A DNA stretch of 34,727 nucleotides from an uncultured Oscillospiraceae bacterium (lineage in GTDB: Bacteria > Bacillota > Clostridia > Oscillospirales > Oscillospiraceae), in the NCBI GenBank assembly GCA_944382995.1, contig CALWOF010000009.1, positions 1 to 34,727 on the forward strand. The letters are read 5' to 3'. Below the pieces are notes generated by a model. The model was not told the DNA's origin, did no database searches, and worked only from the letters and a program-made list of their open reading frames with translations. Positions 1 through 6,768 of this stretch are shown in pieces. Every line of letters begins with the position of its first letter. Position 1 is the first letter of the stretch. The position numbers and the translations under genes were made by a program.

Positions 1-1344
1 AACTATGTGAAGCCCCAGATCCGCCCCACCACCCAGGCCAACTACGAGGCGAAAATCTATCAGCACATCATCCCGGAACTGGGGAAGATCCCCCTGAACC
101 AGCTGGCCCAGAAGGACCTCCAGCAGTTCTATGCCCGGATGAAAACGAGCGGGCGGCTCATCCGCACAGAGCAGTTCGGCAAGGGCCTCTCCGACTCCAT
201 GGTGCGCGGCCTCCACGCCGCCTGCCGGTCCGCTCTGGAAAAGGCGGTGCAGGAGGAACTGATCCGTACCAACCCGGCGGTGGGCTGTAAGCTGCCGCCC
301 AAGCGGGGCCGGGAGATGCAGGTTCTGGGTCGGGAGGAACTCCAGCGGTTCCTCATCCAGGCCCAGGCGGAGGGATACTTTGAGTTGTTCCTTCTGGACT
401 TATGCACCGGCCTGCGGCGGGGCGAACTGCTGGCCCTCCAGTGGGACGACCTGGACTTCAAGACCGGGACCCTGACCGTGAACAAGCAGGTCTACGAGGT
501 GAAGGGACAGCTCCAGGTGAGCGTCCCGAAGACCCGCGCCTCCATCCGCAGGCTGGTCCTGCCGCCCGGCGTGGTGGAGGTGCTGCGGGCGTATCGGGAG
601 ACGGTGGACTCCCGGTGGATGTTCCCCTCGCCGGTCAAAGAGGATATGCCCATGACGCCGGGAGCGGTGCGCCGGCGGCTCCAGATCATTCTGGAGCGGG
701 CCGGGTGTAAGAGAATCAGATTTCATGATTTACGGCATACTTTTGCCACGCTATCTCTGGAGAGCGGTATGGATGTGAAGACCCTCTCCGCCATGCTGGG
801 CCATGTGTCGGCGGCAACCACCCTGGACATCTACACCCATGTCACCGGGGACATGCAGAGCGAGGCGGCGGCCAAAATAGATCGGGGGCTGGGCAACGAG
901 GTACGGGCAGAATCCGTTCAGGCAGAGCAAAACCCGACCGCAGACTTCCAGCCGGTGTTGAGAAAGACCCGGAAGCCCGGCACCGGGTGCATCTCTCAGA
1001 TCAATGACCACCTGTTCGAAGGCCGCTACTCTCCCACCTGGCCGGACGGCACCAAGCATTCCAAATGCGTCTACGCCCACACCCGGGACGAGTGTGAGGC
1101 GAAGCTGAAGGCGCTGATTCAGCGGATGAACGCGGAGCGGCAGGCTCTGCGGAACCAAGCACGGGGCGTCACCCCGCCGGACAAGCTCACCAAAACACAG
1201 AAGAAGATCTGGACGTATATGAAGTTCCATCCGGACGAGACAAATTACAGCGTGATCGCCCGGGGTTCCGGGGTGACCCGGCATACGGCGGCAAAATGGT
1301 ATGAGATGATCAGGGGGATGTTAGTAGTGGGCGAGATAAAATGA
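1..1344 (+). CDS. Tyrosine recombinase/integrase, 5' end cut by window edge
   Basis: Site-specific integrase that would move a mobile element in and out of the chromosome. The frame is open to the window edge: a GTG at 7 is possible, but the reading continues upstream (N-Y-V-K-P...), so the true start is outside. About 445 residues are visible. An N-terminal core-binding (SAM-like) region is followed by the catalytic domain, with Arg in CTGLRRGEL (about residue 137 from the GTG), HDLRH (about 240), the LGH box, and the Tyr nucleophile in DIYTHV (about 275). After the catalytic domain comes an unusual extension of about 150 residues. It contains a segment (GRYSPTWPDGTKHSKCVYAH) resembling the AP2-like arm-binding domain normally found at the N-terminus, then a helix-turn-helix-like tail (VIARGSGVTRHTAAKWYEMI). 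The gene is GC-rich, unlike the AT-rich genes that follow. The family call is sound; which element it moves is unknown. Confidence 0.9.
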   Translation, partial: NYVKPQIRPTTQANYEAKIYQHIIPELGKIPLNQLAQKDLQQFYARMKTSGRLIRTEQFGKGLSDSMVRGLHAACRSALEKAVQEELIRTNPAVGCKLPPKRGREMQVLGREELQRFLIQAQAEGYFELFLLDLCTGLRRGELLALQWDDLDFKTGTLTVNKQVYEVKGQLQVSVPKTRASIRRLVLPPGVVEVLRAYRETVDSRWMFPSPVKEDMPMTPGAVRRRLQIILERAGCKRIRFHDLRHTFATLSLESGMDVKTLSAMLGHVSAATTLDIYTHVTGDMQSEAAAKIDRGLGNEVRAESVQAEQNPTADFQPVLRKTRKPGTGCISQINDHLFEGRYSPTWPDGTKHSKCVYAHTRDECEAKLKALIQRMNAERQALRNQARGVTPPDKLTKTQKKIWTYMKFHPDETNYSVIARGSGVTRHTAAKWYEMIRGMLVVGEIK

Positions 1345-1743
1345 CTTGGCGATTGCAGAGAAACTATCTAAGCACAGTCGGAGAGACGGTGAAGTAGAGT
1401 AGGACACGGTGGCTGGTGAGAACTTGGTTCGGTGGTATCTATATATCTTTGCTCGACAACCCCTTTGAAGAATACGTTCTGACAAATCTGAAGATGCTGA
1501 TCTTGGATGTGCCCTTGAAGATGTACACAAAGGCCACCGGTATATCCCTCAGCGAAATTTCCGAAGTCTCCACTGCCTTCGAGGCACCGTGTCATCACCA
1601 TATAGACAAGCATGGGCGGGTTTCAAAATTTTTACAACCCTCCCATGTCATTAGCCTATTCATTTTTAGTGGTGAGATTGATCGTAATTTTGTTCCGCAC
1701 ACCGATGGCCTGGCCAAAACTACATTAGCGATAATACTATCTG
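1345..1743 (+). other. Gene-poor stretch after integrase; one doubtful ORF
   Basis: No recognisable gene lies between the integrase stop and the operon promoter. An open frame at 1416-1775 (119 codons, MRTWFGGIYISLLDNPFEEY start) has no convincing ribosome site and resembles no family I know. It also overlaps the promoter of the next operon at its end. Open frames on the minus strand at 1321-1613 are equally unconvincing. Base composition drops here from GC-rich to AT-rich, so this is probably a junction or degraded mobile-element sequence. Confidence 0.35.
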
Positions 1744-1772
1744 TTGAATTGGCACGATATTTAGTATATAAT
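1744..1772 (+). promoter_or_regulatory. SigA-like promoter of the AT-rich operon
   Basis: -35 TTGAAT (1744-1749), 17-bp spacer, and a perfect -10 TATAAT (1767-1772). Transcription would begin near 1779 and read toward the NTPase gene. Confidence 0.7.
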
Positions 1773-1798
1773 TAATTGCAGATAGCAGGTATCAAATC

Positions 1799-1828
1799 AG
1801 CCGTGTGGGATCTCCATGCGGCTTTTTT
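1799..1828 (+). terminator. Leader hairpin with T-run (possible attenuator)
   Basis: An imperfect stem (AGCCG..TGG / CCA..CGGCT) is followed by TTTTTT. It lies only about 20 nt after the predicted transcription start and about 40 nt before the NTPase start codon. It could be an attenuator of the operon or the end of a very short RNA of about 50 nt. Confidence 0.5.
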
Positions 1829-1867
1829 ACCAATTGAAACATTTGGCATTGAGCGAAGGTGTTATCT

Positions 1868-4147
1868 ATGAAAGAAAAGACTGTTAGTGGCTGTACTGAA
1901 TTAAAAAACATCATAGACGGTATAGGTACAGTGCAAACTGCTTGGGGACTTATTGTTACAGGGGCTTTGGTACTTGCATTTGCTTTTTGTGTTCTTACAT
2001 TTACTAATAGAGTAAATAAAGCAACTAAAGCACAAATTCAGCGGTTTCAAAAAGATGGAAAATATCTTCCGTCAATATACATTGAATTAAACAATTCAAT
2101 GGAGTACCTACGCTATTTCATATTTTCGTATAGATGGAAGCATCGTATTATTAGGCAATACAATCATCTGTTTCATGGATACGAAGGGAAACGACTAAAG
2201 CAATTGCTCGGATCTGGCATAAAATATACCCTATCTTACTTTGCGCCATTTTCACAGCTAAACTCTGCACTGTCTGTCATGCATGACGAACTTGAGATGT
2301 TAAGAAAAGAAAGCAAAGAGTTACATGCTGAACATGGAGAGGTCGTCTGGGCAATTACTAATAGTACATATAAACATGTCTATGCTGTTAAGCATTTGCA
2401 AGATTTATGTACTATAATGAGTCAGAAAAATGTGATTCTTGTGGGGAGCGCTGGTAATGGGAAAACCAACCTTTTGTGCCGAATGGCTGAAGTTGCAGTT
2501 GCCAACAAAATGCCCTGCCTACTTGTGAATTCGAGAGATATCAAGGAAGATTGCACAGAATATATCACTAAAAAGCTCCCTATCCTTCCTAAACTACGAA
2601 ATATAACATTGCTTTATTTGAGATTAATATCTCTGATGCTCTTCTTTCAAAGAAAGTATTTCTATATATTTATCGATGCAATTAATGAAAATGATCGGGA
2701 GGTTTTTACAAATAGCATTGCAACACTGCTCGAAACATTTTCAAAATATGGCCGTATTCGAATACTTTTGACTTGCAGACGTGAATACTTTGATTCTCGT
2801 TATAAGGCTCTGTTTTCTGCTGGTGAAGAGGTGCCTTACATTTTTAATTTGCAGGAAGCAGAGTATGATGAGCGAGCAACTATGAAGATGATAAAGGCAT
2901 ACATGGAGTATTTTAACGTCCGTGGACCGTTTTCCCTTGAAACACGGGAGAAACTAAGGAATTCCTTGTTTTTGACTCGTATTTTCTTTGAAGTAAACAG
3001 CAGCCGTGATGAATGTATGCTGGAGTTTCGAAACGCAGAAATATATAAGCTCTATTTTGATAAAATTGCTTCTGAGAATATGGGAGTTGATCTAAGTGCG
3101 GTTGTTAATAGTATTGCTCGATATATGTTTGCCGAATTTCAGTTTGATCAAATTCCAATAGAAGAATTGCACTTATCATTTGATGAACTGGACTCTTTGA
3201 GAAATTTGTTGGATAACAATTTGATAATCAGTCGCTCTGTTCATGCTGGAACAGGTATTACCGAGCACGAAGAAGAGTATGTCTACTTTGTCTTTGATGA
3301 GTTACGAGATTTTTGCTTGGCAAGATATCTTTTAACCTTAGATGAGAGCAAATCTTCCTCGGAATATGTAGCATTCTTTTCAAATGTGACAAAACTCTTC
3401 GAGCAAAGGTTATCACCTGTTGAGGGAATGGTCAAATATGCATATCATCATTTTAGGATGACTGCGAGGACCGATTTGTGTGAAAAGATTCTAAAAACAT
3501 TTGGTGAATCAGATGTACAGAGTATCTTAGATTGGGAGAAACGTGACCTGTACAGACAAAGAACATTTAATAATTTTGGCTTTTCATTGGTTTTTTCTGA
3601 AGGTGACAATATTGCTTCGTTTGAAATTGACTACATCCTGCATTGTGTGGAAAACGACTGCAGTCATTACTGGGAGATATTCTGGTTCCTTTTAGGGAAC
3701 GAATATTCTGGGTTTAAGCCAAATATCCACTTGGCCATCGATATTTTGCTTCGTTGTGAAAATGATGAGACCCCTGAAAAAATTCTGAAATACTTTTTCG
3801 ATGACAAAGTAGAAAAATATTATTCTCATTCTTACAAGGAACGCAGAGTCGATAATCTAAAGGAGTGGCTTGACGCTATTAAAAAGAATAATGGAACGCT
3901 ATCTGAAAGTTTGAAAATTATGGTTACCATCTTGGCAGCGTACGACCCAACGGAGTTTGCACTTAAAGAATACCATGAATTCGTCATGAACGAAGATTTT
4001 TTTAAACAGATTCAGGAAAGTGACCTTTGCAATCCAATAAAATTACTTGTAAGTGAATTCAAAGACTGGATGACGCCAAAACCAACTGATCAAAATGCGC
4101 TTCAGATACTAATGGACATGTTGAAATCGGAGGGATACCATGAATAA
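1868..4147 (+). CDS. Membrane-anchored STAND/NACHT-like P-loop NTPase
   Basis: Large NTPase of 759 residues, first gene of an overlapping four-gene AT-rich operon. ATG 1868 is chosen because GAAGG ends 8 nt upstream; an in-frame GTG at 1859 would sit on that site. A hydrophobic helix (about residues 22-46, GLIVTGALVLAFAFCVLTF) suggests an N-terminal membrane anchor. A charged, partly coiled region follows. Walker A is GSAGNGKT (193-200) and Walker B is FIDAINE (D270, E274). An arginine-containing strand ILLTCRREYFD (about 300) and FDELRDFCLARYLL (about 478-491) resemble the sensor and post-ATPase winged-helix region of NACHT/STAND proteins. The C-terminal 250 residues are helical, with no domain I recognise. 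STAND NTPases often act as sensors in defence, but that role is inferred from architecture and context only. Confidence 0.75.
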   Translation: MKEKTVSGCTELKNIIDGIGTVQTAWGLIVTGALVLAFAFCVLTFTNRVNKATKAQIQRFQKDGKYLPSIYIELNNSMEYLRYFIFSYRWKHRIIRQYNHLFHGYEGKRLKQLLGSGIKYTLSYFAPFSQLNSALSVMHDELEMLRKESKELHAEHGEVVWAITNSTYKHVYAVKHLQDLCTIMSQKNVILVGSAGNGKTNLLCRMAEVAVANKMPCLLVNSRDIKEDCTEYITKKLPILPKLRNITLLYLRLISLMLFFQRKYFYIFIDAINENDREVFTNSIATLLETFSKYGRIRILLTCRREYFDSRYKALFSAGEEVPYIFNLQEAEYDERATMKMIKAYMEYFNVRGPFSLETREKLRNSLFLTRIFFEVNSSRDECMLEFRNAEIYKLYFDKIASENMGVDLSAVVNSIARYMFAEFQFDQIPIEELHLSFDELDSLRNLLDNNLIISRSVHAGTGITEHEEEYVYFVFDELRDFCLARYLLTLDESKSSSEYVAFFSNVTKLFEQRLSPVEGMVKYAYHHFRMTARTDLCEKILKTFGESDVQSILDWEKRDLYRQRTFNNFGFSLVFSEGDNIASFEIDYILHCVENDCSHYWEIFWFLLGNEYSGFKPNIHLAIDILLRCENDETPEKILKYFFDDKVEKYYSHSYKERRVDNLKEWLDAIKKNNGTLSESLKIMVTILAAYDPTEFALKEYHEFVMNEDFFKQIQESDLCNPIKLLVSEFKDWMTPKPTDQNALQILMDMLKSEGYHE

Positions 4148-4511
4148 TGAGGTTTTTTTCAAGAAAACTCCAAGAATGTCCCTGATTGGTATATGCCATT
4201 TTTTTGGAGTAAAAAGAAAAAGTTATGCAGGGTCAATAGTGGAACGAATTTACGATTATTACTGCAGAGGTGCCATCAACCTGCATCTTGAGTATTTTTT
4301 GTACTATCGAAAAGAATTTTCAGACTTCGAATCCTTTTTAGAGAAAAAATTCAATCTGTTTCCCAACGAAATCAAAGACAAAAAATCCTTGCTACTATGT
4401 CATAAATCACTTACTTTTGAAGCCGATGGGCATATAACTGATTTGTTAGAGGACGAAGCTATAAAAGGTACATTTCGAAAATATATGGGAGCGTATATCG
4501 ATGATAATTAG
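4140..4511 (+). CDS. Small protein of unknown function in NTPase/rSAM operon
   Basis: A 123-residue protein I do not recognise. Its start overlaps the NTPase stop by 8 bp, and a good ribosome site (GGAGGG at 4129-4134) precedes the ATG, so it is very likely translated and coupled. The N-terminal part (MSLIGICHFFGVKRKSYAGS to IVERIYDYY) has the rhythm of a small helix-loop-helix nucleic-acid-binding unit such as SAP, but the match is weak. The rest is rich in aromatic and charged residues, without signal peptide or membrane segment. It is AT-rich like its neighbours. Its conserved-looking position between the NTPase and the serine-motif protein suggests a shared system. Confidence 0.6.
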   Translation: MNNEVFFKKTPRMSLIGICHFFGVKRKSYAGSIVERIYDYYCRGAINLHLEYFLYYRKEFSDFESFLEKKFNLFPNEIKDKKSLLLCHKSLTFEADGHITDLLEDEAIKGTFRKYMGAYIDDN

Positions 4512-4899
4512 AGATGGGTTTGTAACAAATAGTTCTTCCACGAACTTTATGATTATTAGTAAAGAAGAATTGAGTAGTGATTATTTGCTCGAAAAGCTCG
4601 GCTTTAGAAAGGGCTCAAGCATAAGCGCTGCTGCATTTTCTCTGGTTGATGATATCGTTAGTGCAACAAAATCTGGAGTTCGTTGGTTTGAGGTTGATCA
4701 AATCAATTATGAAAATATTCTAAAGATTTTCGGGAAAGAGAGTGCTGAAAAGTTCAAAAAGATGTCGAAAAAGGGCTATCACACTTATATCGGTCACACC
4801 AATTCTGATGACGATTACTTGACTTCTTTCATGACAACAGATTCTTTTGTAATTGACGAAAAAGATTTCTATATGGATGGAAAGAACTGTGGTTGGTAA
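4501..4899 (+). CDS. Small protein with N-terminal GFVTNSSST motif, possible substrate of adjacent radical SAM enzyme
   Basis: A 132-residue protein that starts inside the end of the previous gene (11-bp overlap), with GGGAG at 4487-4491, 9 nt before the ATG. Residues 5-16 read DGFVTNSSSTNF. I recall similar N-termini (GFVSNSSSSSF type) on many short uncharacterised bacterial and phage proteins; this is memory, not a search. The remaining 110 residues are acidic and soluble-looking (YHTYIGHTNSDDDYLTSF), with a single Cys near the C-terminus (NCGW). There is no secretion signal. The next gene, a radical SAM/SPASM-like enzyme, starts on this gene's stop codon, so peptide modification of the Ser-rich motif is a reasonable but untested guess. 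Confidence 0.6.
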   Translation: MIIRDGFVTNSSSTNFMIISKEELSSDYLLEKLGFRKGSSISAAAFSLVDDIVSATKSGVRWFEVDQINYENILKIFGKESAEKFKKMSKKGYHTYIGHTNSDDDYLTSFMTTDSFVIDEKDFYMDGKNCGW

Positions 4900-5993
4900 T
4901 GATTTACTACAAGGACAATCGATTTGGATTTATTGAGCTGTTCAATGATGAAACAGGAACTCTTATAAGAAGTAACATATTAGATAATGGCATTGAAACT
5001 GGACAGTTACCCCCTATGCGTTCTTTCCCGGAGTTAATTGACATCGGTATTATGGGTGCATGTGATGCGGGTAAAACGGGTCTTTGTCGCAACGCTGGTG
5101 TAGATTGCTATCAACGTGGAATATCATCATGCGAGAAAAATATGGATTTCGATGATTATTCCGCAATAATCAATCAATGTAAGGGACGAGTATTTCAAAT
5201 AGCTTTGGGCGGTGCAGGAGATCCTAATAAACATGAATTCTTTCCTGACATACTACACATCACAAGAGAGAATAGAATAGTTCCAAATTATACTACAAGT
5301 GGTTACGCACTAACTGATAAGGAAATTGAACTAACAAAAAAATACTGTGGGGCTGTAGCGGTGTCTTACTATTCTAAACTTGATAAATACGGCAATGAAG
5401 ATAACCCCTCAACAATTTCGGCATTGGAACGTTTTGTTAAGGCGGGCTGTATTACTAATGTCCATTACGTTCTTTCGAAAAAAAGCATAAAAGAAGCGAT
5501 TTATAGAGTGAAAAATGGTGTATTTCCCAAAGGAATTAACGCTGTAGTGTTTTTGCTCTATAAGCCAATAGGACTTGCATCTCGAAAGCATGTCATAGAT
5601 TGTGGAGATCCAGATTATCTTGAGTTGCTTCGCTTAGTTGCATCAGCAGACAGTAGTTGGAGATACGGATTTGATACTTGCCAATCTCCTGCAATATACA
5701 AATTTGCATCCAGCATTGCAATAGAGTCCATTGAATTCTGTGAAGCGGCCAGATTTTCTATGTACATTAATTCGAGATGTATCGCATTTCCTTGCTCTTT
5801 CGGAATAGAAGACGATACTTTTTCTGTTGATTTGAAACAACACACTTTACGAGAAGCATGGGAATCAGAGAGCTTTGCTAAATTTCGGAAACAACAATCT
5901 GAAATGTGTTCAAACTGTAATGCAGGTGTATGCAGAAGTTGCGGGTTAGGGCTTGAGATAAATCTTTGTGGAAAAGTAAAGAAGTATTTGTAA
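4899..5993 (+). CDS. Radical SAM/SPASM-like enzyme with non-canonical cysteine motif
   Basis: A 364-residue enzyme. ATG 4899 is chosen because it shares one base with the previous stop (TAATG); an upstream in-frame TTG at 4893 is less likely. The cluster motif reads GACDAGKTGLCRNAGVDCYQ, that is C55-x7-C63-x6-C70 instead of the canonical C-x3-C-x2-C, with C78 also close by. The surrounding CDAG..C..CYQ frame is still that of a radical SAM core, and ALGGAGDP (102-109) matches the glycine-rich SAM-binding motif. The C-terminus carries seven cysteines (C294, C299, C337, C340, C345, C348, C357) in a pattern close to SPASM domains, which bind auxiliary iron-sulfur clusters in peptide-modifying enzymes. 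Likely substrate: the Ser-motif protein encoded just upstream (inference). Confidence 0.8.
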   Translation: MIYYKDNRFGFIELFNDETGTLIRSNILDNGIETGQLPPMRSFPELIDIGIMGACDAGKTGLCRNAGVDCYQRGISSCEKNMDFDDYSAIINQCKGRVFQIALGGAGDPNKHEFFPDILHITRENRIVPNYTTSGYALTDKEIELTKKYCGAVAVSYYSKLDKYGNEDNPSTISALERFVKAGCITNVHYVLSKKSIKEAIYRVKNGVFPKGINAVVFLLYKPIGLASRKHVIDCGDPDYLELLRLVASADSSWRYGFDTCQSPAIYKFASSIAIESIEFCEAARFSMYINSRCIAFPCSFGIEDDTFSVDLKQHTLREAWESESFAKFRKQQSEMCSNCNAGVCRSCGLGLEINLCGKVKKYL

Positions 5994-6028
5994 TAGCTAT
6001 CAAATTCTACACCAAAAAACAAAGAAAA

Positions 6029-6060
6029 CCTCCCCTTGGAGCTCGTGCTCCAAGGGGAGG
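6029..6060 (-). terminator. Terminator of tRNA-Pro
   Basis: A perfect 14-bp stem (CCTCCCCTTGGAGC and its complement) with a 4-nt loop directly abuts the tRNA CCA end. On the minus strand it is followed by a T-rich run (TTTTCTTTGTTTTTT). It also faces the converging radical SAM gene that stops at 5993. Confidence 0.85.
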
Positions 6061-6136
6061 TGGTCCGAGTGGGGAGACTCGAACTCCCGGCATCTTGCTC
6101 CCAAAGCAAGCGCGCTACCAACTGCGCTACACCCGG
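6061..6136 (-). tRNA. tRNA-Pro (anticodon UGG)
   Basis: An intact 76-nt cloverleaf read on the minus strand. The acceptor stem CCGGGTG pairs with CACTCGG (one G-T wobble). The D stem is GCGC/GCGC, the anticodon stem CTTGC/GCAAG has the loop TTTGGGA (anticodon TGG), and the T stem GGGAG/CTCCC has loop TTCGAGT. CCA is encoded. It borders the AT-rich island and is the only intact member of a decayed array. A TGGTCA / CATATT pair 17 bp apart lies about 30 nt upstream (weak promoter). Confidence 0.95.
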
Positions 6137-6250
6137 TTATAAAGTTTTCTGATTGTGGTCAAATATGGGGTCAGCGCCGGTTTTTGACCAGTTCCCGGCG
6201 ATGGGCAAAGCTCCGTCCGCCTTAGCGTCCCAGAGCTTTCCGGGATTTTA

Positions 6251-6319
6251 AGAAAGTGCGGCTCGAACTCCGGCCTCACGCTCCCAAACCACGCGTTCTA
6301 TCAACTGAACTACACCCGG
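6251..6319 (-). pseudogene. Decayed tRNA-Pro copy 1 (near full length)
   Basis: Read on the minus strand it begins CCGGGTG like the intact tRNA and has the anticodon loop TTTGGGA. Its D stem is GTTC/GAAC, a paired change from GCGC/GCGC, so it was once under selection. The anticodon stem has a mismatch at the loop end, the T stem does not pair, and no matching 3' acceptor strand or CCA follows. Its upstream flank resembles that of the intact tRNA (shared TGGTCAAAAA block). Confidence 0.8.
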
Positions 6320-6460
6320 ATATGGAATTGTTTTATCTGTGGTCTTTTATGTGGTCTTGGTCGCTTTTTGACCAGCGGCCTTGTGGAACTGGTTCCCGCT
6401 TCTGGTAGTGTCCCAGCGGGTTGTGGGATTGCGGTTTTATCCTCATGGATGGGCGGGGCG

Positions 6461-6501
6461 GGCTCCCAAATCACGTGCGCTACCAACTGCGCTACACCCG
6501 G
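6461..6501 (-). pseudogene. tRNA-Pro copy 2, 5' half only
   Basis: Acceptor 5' strand, D arm (identical to the intact gene) and anticodon loop TTTGGGA are preserved. Homology stops just after the anticodon loop, and unrelated GC-rich sequence replaces the 3' half. Confidence 0.8.
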
Positions 6502-6567
6502 ATATTCAGTTTTTCTGCATGATACCATGCGGAGAAGGAAAAAGCAAGTTTTTCGTGTCTGTGGGCG
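6468..6567. repeat. Direct repeat of about 100 bp (partner at 6690-6789)
   Basis: The block covering the tRNA 5' half, the promoter and about 20 bp further upstream recurs at 6690-6789 at roughly 85-90% identity by eye, indicating tandem duplication of a promoter-plus-tRNA unit. Confidence 0.75.
6519..6547 (-). promoter_or_regulatory. Promoter of tRNA-Pro copy 2
   Basis: Minus strand: TTGCTT (6547-6542), 17-bp spacer, TATCAT (6524-6519). It ends about 17 nt before the tRNA 5' base, the spacing expected for a tRNA promoter. Confidence 0.65.
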
Positions 6568-6683
6568 GCGCTGTGGTCAAGCCCGATTTTGCGGGAGTTT
6601 TTCAACCGGGGAATTTCCGCCGCAAGCTACTGTCCCAAGGACTTCCGGGGTTCCGCTTTTGGGGGAATGGATAGGTCATCTAT

Positions 6684-6723
6684 CCTCCCAAACCACCCGC
6701 GCTACCAACTGCGCTAATCCCGG
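6684..6723 (-). pseudogene. tRNA-Pro copy 3, 5' half only
   Basis: 5' acceptor strand (CCGGGAT), D arm and anticodon loop TTTGGGA are followed by unrelated sequence, breaking at nearly the same place as copy 2. A small hairpin (GGATAG/CTATCC, 6669-6685) replaces the 3' side. Confidence 0.75.
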
Positions 6724-6739
6724 ATATTCGGTTTTCTGC

Positions 6740-6768
6740 ATGATACCATGCGAGGGAGGAAAAAGCAA
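6740..6768 (-). promoter_or_regulatory. Promoter of tRNA-Pro copy 3
   Basis: Minus strand: TTGCTT (6768-6763), 17-bp spacer, TATCAT (6745-6740). The same arrangement as copy 2; the strongest promoter-like element of the array and its most upstream one. Confidence 0.65.

Follow-up and report, generated by a model that had tools for sequence, protein, structure and literature searches.

The FxSxx peptide-processing systems, in the part of their description drawn on here (Kaur et al. 2020, PMC7159879), are characterized by a C-terminal motif, cleavage by a zincin peptidase and actinobacterial ternary systems with vWA. With the locus reported here they share, in that same part, a STAND-type (AP-ATPase) ATPase, a motif-bearing small protein, a SPASM enzyme predicted to modify the small protein and a conflict setting. 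Avs2 (AVAST type 2) shares with it the core of the nucleoside triphosphatase (NTPase), matched in PADLOC, and a swappable N-terminal effector. The locus comes from an uncultured gut bacterium of the Oscillospiraceae (GenBank assembly GCA_944382995.1, contig CALWOF010000009.1, positions 1 to 34,727); by the window we mean this whole stretch of 34,727 nucleotides. It consists of four overlapping genes encoding a STAND NTPase, two small proteins and a radical SAM/SPASM enzyme. Why would a STAND NTPase travel with a radical SAM enzyme? By a narrow preference, we read the set as a mobile STAND system of Avs-like type in which a dedicated radical SAM enzyme matures the tagged partner, and which draws on a module that is widespread in phages. 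The genes and the tag are as follows.

1868..4147, + strand: STAND NTPase, 759 residues from the ATG at 1868 (762 from a GTG at 1859), with an N-terminal membrane helix and an Avs2-like NTPase core
4140..4511, + strand: 123-residue partner protein with a conserved EYxxYYxxEY, confined to four-gene sets
4501..4899, + strand: 132-residue tagged protein, the likely substrate, with Trp at its C-terminal end
4501..4554, + strand: N-terminal tag MIIRDGFVTNSSSTNFMI of the 132-residue protein, in which the invariant N-S-S is residues 10-12 (4528-4536)
4899..5993, + strand: radical SAM/SPASM enzyme (ATG 4899; TTG 4893 possible), with CX7CX6C and a SPASM C-terminus

The 132-residue protein begins MIIRDGFVTNSSSTNF, and the tag pattern at its start is M(K)(I)(R)x(D/G)FV(T/S)NSSxSF, with the core FVTNSSS. 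Among 245 genomes of the order, an enzyme profile (E<=1e-15) matched 7, and a tag profile 22 residues long (E<=1e-3) matched exactly the same 7 and none of the other 238. Among 299 genomes of the phylum, the tag was detected in 9, all of them among the 10 with an enzyme match; the tenth match, in G526, is assigned to a different SPASM family from its score and gene context, and a regular-expression search gave no tag near it. The two samples combined hold 15 different tag-enzyme genomes. Weak tag-profile matches were left uncounted: 124 of the 245 genomes have one at E<=10, the best outside the seven enzyme genomes reaching E 0.0024 (19.1 bits), and the phylum sample has two, at E 0.0027 and 0.0047. 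Tag and enzyme are no more than about 2 kb apart in every intact bacterial case. A decayed pair in G273 (L024, 1183-6933) is 4 kb apart, its tag gene carrying an in-frame stop and its enzyme gene lacking the SPASM end.

Other arrangements of enzyme and tag occur in bacteria. A chromosomal operon type (L023, L081, L082, L083) encodes a membrane-like protein of ~290 residues, the enzyme, a tagged protein of 477-510 residues and a protein of ~315 residues, without an NTPase. Three tagged proteins surround one enzyme in L008 (5705-10845), with BRCT domains in one tagged and one untagged neighbor, and in L011 (5048-9954) the enzyme and a tagged protein lie directly behind type I-C Cas genes.

The same pairing is found in phages. 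Scanning IMG/VR with the enzyme profile returned 76 loci, and the strict tag pattern was found in the sequence around the enzyme at 68 of them, with up to eight tagged open reading frames (ORFs) in a row. Whole-record searches gave tags for five of the remaining eight (weak in L150) and no tag in three records of 6 to 38 kb. Pattern matches lie on the strand of the enzyme in 236 of 237 cases, and one shuffle of the same 9160 ORFs produced none. Approached from the tag, through two tag-protein families, the search yielded 110 viral loci, 93 of them in records encoding the enzyme: near the locus in 85, in the contigs of L107 or L122 in 3 and elsewhere in the record in 5. Five more loci fetched by the tag alone, kept from 586 pattern matches, all come from records that contain the enzyme. 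With the window enzyme alone as query the IMG/VR scan gave no locus, and with the tagged-protein profile it gave one. Escherichia coli phage RB16 encodes the enzyme plus two tagged proteins elsewhere, RB16p106 and RB16p111, both starting MKIRSGFVSNSSSSSF. Relatives of one RB16 tagged protein occur in 174 phage records and relatives of the enzyme in 174, with nearly equal host sets (compared by host, not by record). In the L147 record, as in RB16, unlinked tags share the genome with the enzyme. Matches to phrog_7397 were obtained for two phage tag proteins and cover their residues 1-31 and 1-22.

How strict is the tag, and what does it follow? A search asking only for the prefix up to T/S found N-S-S after it in 259 of 259 cases. 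With the first 25 residues removed, the 267 distinct tag proteins (90 loci) fall into 89 body clusters at blastp E 1e-3, some of which remote kinship may merge. They are 82-503 residues long (median 135), one has a BRCT domain, and the start Met stands nine residues before the tag Asn in 252 of the 267. A nucleic-acid signal, in DNA or RNA, was rejected as an explanation of the tag, since its three Ser positions use AGY and TCN codons side by side; with both kinds present, selection acts on the protein.

Direct contact between enzyme and substrate predicts that the tag follows the enzyme rather than the protein behind the tag. An enzyme tree was built from 88 sequences, of which eight without a tag label were omitted to leave 80 rows; 17 loci with fragments or near copies had been skipped beforehand. 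Tag type, defined by residues -4 and -1 from the Asn, changes 13 times on this tree against 33.4 times when shuffled, and none of 200 shuffles was as low. At the tree loci, all 80 tags that accompany enzymes of the GS clade have Ser at residue -1, and 133 of the 139 that accompany the other enzymes have Thr there. Nine body families occur beside both enzyme clades, and 29 of 29 and 81 of 87 members carry the tag of their enzyme's clade. Where a tree locus has at least two tags, all are of one type in 44 of 45 cases; for all such loci the figure is 52 of 53, against a shuffled mean of 7.7, ten non-tree loci having been assigned to a clade by hand. The tag variant tracks the enzyme clade, not the protein body. 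This coevolution is the strongest, still indirect, support for an enzyme acting on the tag, and on such comparisons we consider it very likely that the radical SAM/SPASM enzyme modifies the tag. The modified site is probably N-S-S. SPASM chemistry would be compatible with Ser or Asn being oxidized or cross-linked.

The four genes are one recurring mobile set beyond chance. We searched 105 loci, most found through the enzyme and hence an enzyme-first sample, with profiles of the NTPase core, the 123-residue protein and the body of the 132-residue protein. All four genes, in one order (STAND NTPase, ~123 residues, ~132 residues, radical SAM/SPASM), were found in 13 of the 105, and by the same profile search neither the NTPase nor the 123-residue protein is present in the other 92. 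The sets are those of the window, its near copy L006 (Flavonifractor sp. An10) and L007 (a metagenome-assembled Eubacteriales genome); L009, L010 and L084 (Bacillota); L056, L057 and L058 (plasmids of Agrobacterium, Rhodobacter and Rhizobium); and L126, L134, L142 and L159 (IMG/VR contigs). In an unbiased check of the 299 phylum genomes, the 123-residue profile matches 2. Both carry the whole set, and they are also the genomes with full-length NTPase matches; two further NTPase-profile matches cover only part of ORFs longer than 1500 residues. An earlier sequence-only reading of this locus had allowed that homologs might be found mostly apart, or the genes prove to be passengers of a single island. 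Neither pattern is seen at the 13 loci or in the two phylum genomes: the set recurs in different islands, and no full-length NTPase or 123-residue protein was seen apart from it in the 105 loci or the 299 phylum genomes. By eye, the L007 set adjoins conjugation-like genes.

The same reading had proposed a SPASM enzyme with a candidate substrate. The enzyme part stands, with SPASM (PF13186) at 28.1 bits against a cut-off of 21.5, and a candidate exists, but the likely substrate is the 132-residue protein with its N-terminal N-S-S tag, not the 123-residue protein. We discarded the latter as a substrate: it has neither the tag nor a motif common to phage proteins, and it is weakly conserved, with 3 invariant positions among 11 sequences. 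All 11 tagged proteins of four-gene sets that were compared have the same kind of tag at the start and Trp at the end. The tagged protein of the window falls in a 21-member body cluster, and the set-body profile matches phage tag proteins (L143 at E 2e-10, L155 at E 7e-5; reversed sequences no better than 0.06). Searches of solved structures with the tag, the tag proteins and the 123-residue protein returned nothing credible.

The membrane-anchored STAND-type NTPase of that reading is borne out by a match to Avs2 in PADLOC (E 5e-20) and one hydrophobic helix at about residues 24-47. Avs2 models are matched by all five NTPases scanned, among them L007 (2e-22) and L057 (1e-20). The window match is confined to about positions 284-673 of 1504, the NCBIfam Avs2 model gives 46.2 bits against a cut-off of 1000, and STAND/NACHT models score below the Pfam cut-offs. 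The window protein has GSAGNGKT (Walker A) and IFIDAINE (hhhhDxxNE), conserved in relatives. Its N-terminus is swapped among sets. The membrane-helix type is found in the window and L007. A trypsin-like type next to a gene of the metallo-beta-lactamase (MBL) fold is found in L009 and L084 by scanning and in L010 by alignment; this domain lies near the cut-off in Pfam and matches LmuA and Avs1b in PADLOC, where the MBL-fold partner of L009 matches Avs1a at E 9.5e-48 and LmuA at E 7.5e-57. The third type is SMEK_N, scanned in L057 (E 1e-38) and assigned by alignment in others. The NTPase of L058 is split into two ORFs. In the trypsin-type sets (L009 3659-10448, L010 4426-11193, L084 2181-8967), the MBL-fold gene lies in front and a gene of ~305 residues behind the enzyme; in L010 the latter is M1E1E6-like in Pfam.

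In the enzyme, the SPASM Cys columns are invariant in alignments of 8 and 9 sequences. The three-Cys cluster motif is conserved, with the canonical CX3CX2C in relatives: among 88 aligned enzymes, the spacing is the unusual CX7CX6C in the window and 18 others and CX3CX2C in 34. Related phage enzymes also show CX5CX3C, CX12CX9C and CX7CX2C. The window enzyme matches PHROG family phrog_7293 at E 3e-22 and phage enzymes match it more strongly (L164, E 3.5e-94). On the tree, a clade of 35 rows (100/99) unites it with phage enzymes and sets it apart from the enzymes of other sets, so that parts of the module appear to have been exchanged between phages and islands. The L007 enzyme is likewise nested in the phage-type clade, and because both are, enzyme exchange is likely. 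A single origin of all four-gene sets with their enzymes is rejected by the approximately unbiased test (11 set enzymes as one clade, p 1.9e-8), the group having been chosen after the tree was seen, a choice about which the test warns.

Around the four genes, the following features delimit or precede the set.

7..1344, + strand: tyrosine integrase, truncated at the 5' end by the contig edge (Pfam Phage_integrase, E 9e-26)
1744..1772, + strand: promoter-like site TTGAAT-17-TATAAT, a 10/12 consensus match
1799..1823, + strand: hairpin of terminator type with a T-run, located after the promoter-like site and before the NTPase gene
6061..6136, - strand: tRNA-Pro(TGG), the attachment site, with the island end near 6105 in the anticodon region

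Four overlapping genes, a sharp difference in base composition from the chromosome and flanks of integrase and tRNA had all been noted from the sequence, and each was recovered. The NTPase gene overlaps the 123-residue gene by 8 bp (4140-4147) and the latter overlaps the tag gene by 11 bp (4501-4511), which in turn overlaps the enzyme gene by 1 bp (TAATG) if translation starts at ATG 4899, probably the start, and by 7 bp if at TTG 4893. The NTPase probably starts at ATG 1868, which has AAGG upstream; its L007 relative begins MKE. G+C content is 36.5% in 1868-5993 versus 65.1% in 7500-34727. The integrase stands on one side and tRNA-Pro on the other, and an Rfam scan gave the tRNA as its sole match. 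Flavonifractor sp. An10 is 98.9% identical over window positions 1-6105 (blastn), its integrase counterpart being a 531-residue ORF (2857-4452). This match ends inside the tRNA-Pro anticodon region, with no tRNA gene detected in the diverging stretch, and because it stops within the tRNA-Pro sequence we infer a mobile island ending near 6105. Three degenerate, spaced partial tRNA-Pro copies downstream of the intact gene (6270-6336, 6452-6518 and 6674-6740; 69-75% identity to 6087-6153) may be scars that earlier integrations left at this site. The proposal of a single promoter stood only in part: the site scores 10/12, but the region holds 15 such sites against a shuffle mean of 15.3, hence no excess, and the hairpin lies before the first gene. 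Terminator-like hairpins number 2, against 2.6 expected, and that at 1799-1823 is a possible attenuator. By eye, the region upstream of the L007 set has no obvious copy of it.

How might these parts work together? We propose that the enzyme recognizes the N-terminal tag of the 132-residue protein and modifies it, most likely at N-S-S, a step to which co-occurrence and coevolution lend strong support. Gene order, exclusivity and size suggest that the matured tagged protein and the 123-residue protein, as a detachable unit, may sense on behalf of the short STAND NTPase or regulate it. By analogy with Avs-type systems, as generally known, a phage would perturb the tagged protein or its partner, the NTPase would assemble and the swappable N-terminal module would act: the membrane helix in the window, elsewhere the trypsin-like domain with its MBL-fold partner, or SMEK. 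The four-gene set is probably immune in function. The enzyme-tag pair is older and far more widespread than the four-gene system. Large phages would apply it to a range of proteins that they encode themselves, and the set in bacteria may imitate this phage module or keep watch for it. Phage relatives of the tagged body, together with the exchange of module parts, make a decoy or guard logic attractive. In its fullest form, which we advance tentatively and consider possible rather than probable, MKxRx(D/G)FV(T/S)NSSxSF would be a universal N-terminal substrate tag of one radical SAM family with which large phages mark many unrelated proteins of their own, and bacteria would have coupled the same tag and enzyme to a STAND ATPase, so that immunity is triggered through a tagged decoy imitating phage proteins. 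If true, it would introduce a protein modification of a new kind and a new principle for sensing phages.

Several observations weigh against the Avs-like system that we favor. Known defense genes lie beside 2 of 12 four-gene loci and 1 of 9 control loci, an enrichment too weak to retain; they are SAVED-HNH and E1-E2 genes of the CBASS type at L084, a type I methylase at L006 and, in the control L011, type I-C Cas. The window enzyme has no match to the Pfam radical SAM core at E<=1, and the nearest solved enzymes are weak profile matches (SkfB at E 7e-7, with the SuiB-type 5v1q, anSME and PqqE; E 7e-7 to 1e-4). Six tags of the alphaproteobacterial-type sets, which form one clade, break the rule for residue -1. 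No enzyme was detected in the records of 17 of the 110 tag-first viral loci, some longer than 100 kb, and no tag lies beside the RB16 enzyme, its tags being about 20 kb away.

The alternative that survives best follows the logic of a leader in ribosomally synthesized and post-translationally modified peptides (RiPPs), where the N-terminus only docks, the enzyme modifies the varied bodies further down and the product is a modified protein or peptide signal. It is unlikely, although a conserved N-terminus with a variable downstream part is common in radical SAM peptide systems, the closest solved enzymes modify peptides and the C-terminal Trp of all 11 set proteins could be the target. An N-S-S invariant in 259 of 259 tags while its flanks vary suggests a site of reaction more than a surface for docking; proteins of 82 to 503 residues (median 135), one of them with a BRCT domain, also speak against it, and no peptidase or exporter gene was found among the annotated or listed neighbors of the window operon.

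Could tag, enzyme and NTPase instead be island cargo of a non-immune kind, forming a regulator that senses redox state, iron or SAM, or a machine for assembly? The sensitivity of radical SAM clusters to oxygen would suit this, and chromosomal enzyme-tag operons exist without the NTPase, with ABC-transport-like genes (L087-L089) or the gene for the ~290-residue membrane protein (L023, L081-L083). Yet Avs2-matching cores and swaps to trypsin/MBL (Avs1a-like, E 9.5e-48) and SMEK are the pattern of conflict systems, and the sets sit on islands, plasmids and IMG/VR contigs, which makes this explanation rather improbable. We regard as quite improbable a selfish module of toxin-antitoxin type, in which a toxic NTPase is kept quiet by the small proteins and the enzyme. 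Overlapping genes, a mobile setting and membrane or protease effector domains would suit it; a radical SAM enzyme would be an unusually costly part of an antitoxin, and neither the NTPase nor the 123-residue protein was seen without the other genes in the 105 loci or the 299 phylum genomes, so that sequence cannot separate this arrangement from immunity. Least credible of all is a tag with a structural role only, as the N-terminal strand of one broad fold that travels with the enzyme by chance: some bodies are remotely related, as within the 21-member cluster to which the window protein belongs, but 89 clusters remain at blastp E 1e-3, the tag variant tracks the enzyme clade across nine body families and unlinked tags share the genome with the enzyme in RB16 and the L147 record.

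What follows if an Avs-like system with a tagged, enzyme-matured partner is correct? A start-of-protein motif common to at least 89 phage and bacterial body clusters gains an enzyme partner and hence a testable chemistry. It would account for many 'hypothetical proteins' of large phages, the E. coli phage RB16 among them, and Avs-like immunity would be extended by a short NTPase that leaves sensing to small partners, of which a radical enzyme matures one.

Searches of the open-licence PMC literature, outside which lie subscription papers and most preprints, turned up nothing relevant on the tag motif, and among the papers listed for radical SAM together with STAND, SMEK, anti-phage, jumbo phage or RB43-group phages none was found to describe such a system. 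The phage families matched by the enzyme and by the tag proteins, phrog_7293 (function unknown) and phrog_7397, are unnamed, with neither a link between them nor a bacterial counterpart stated. SkfB, the SuiB-type enzyme, anSME and PqqE resemble the window enzyme in profile matches and the SPASM domain but differ from its CX7CX6C spacing, and the substrate here would be the tagged start of whole proteins. RiPP precursor systems, in which a peptidase cuts a short precursor made of leader and core, differ in the size of the tag proteins and in the peptidase, which the window operon lacks. From the FxSxx systems, in the part of their description used here, our sets differ in a motif that is N-terminal, of another sequence and common to phage proteins, and in having neither zincin nor vWA partners. 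Avs1, composed of MBL, trypsin and STAND, is approached by the L009 set through its Avs1a-like partner. Compared with Avs2, the window NTPase is half the size (759 residues versus ~1500 profile positions) and is without the long C-terminal sensor, and it is accompanied by three extra genes, including those for the radical SAM enzyme and the tagged protein.

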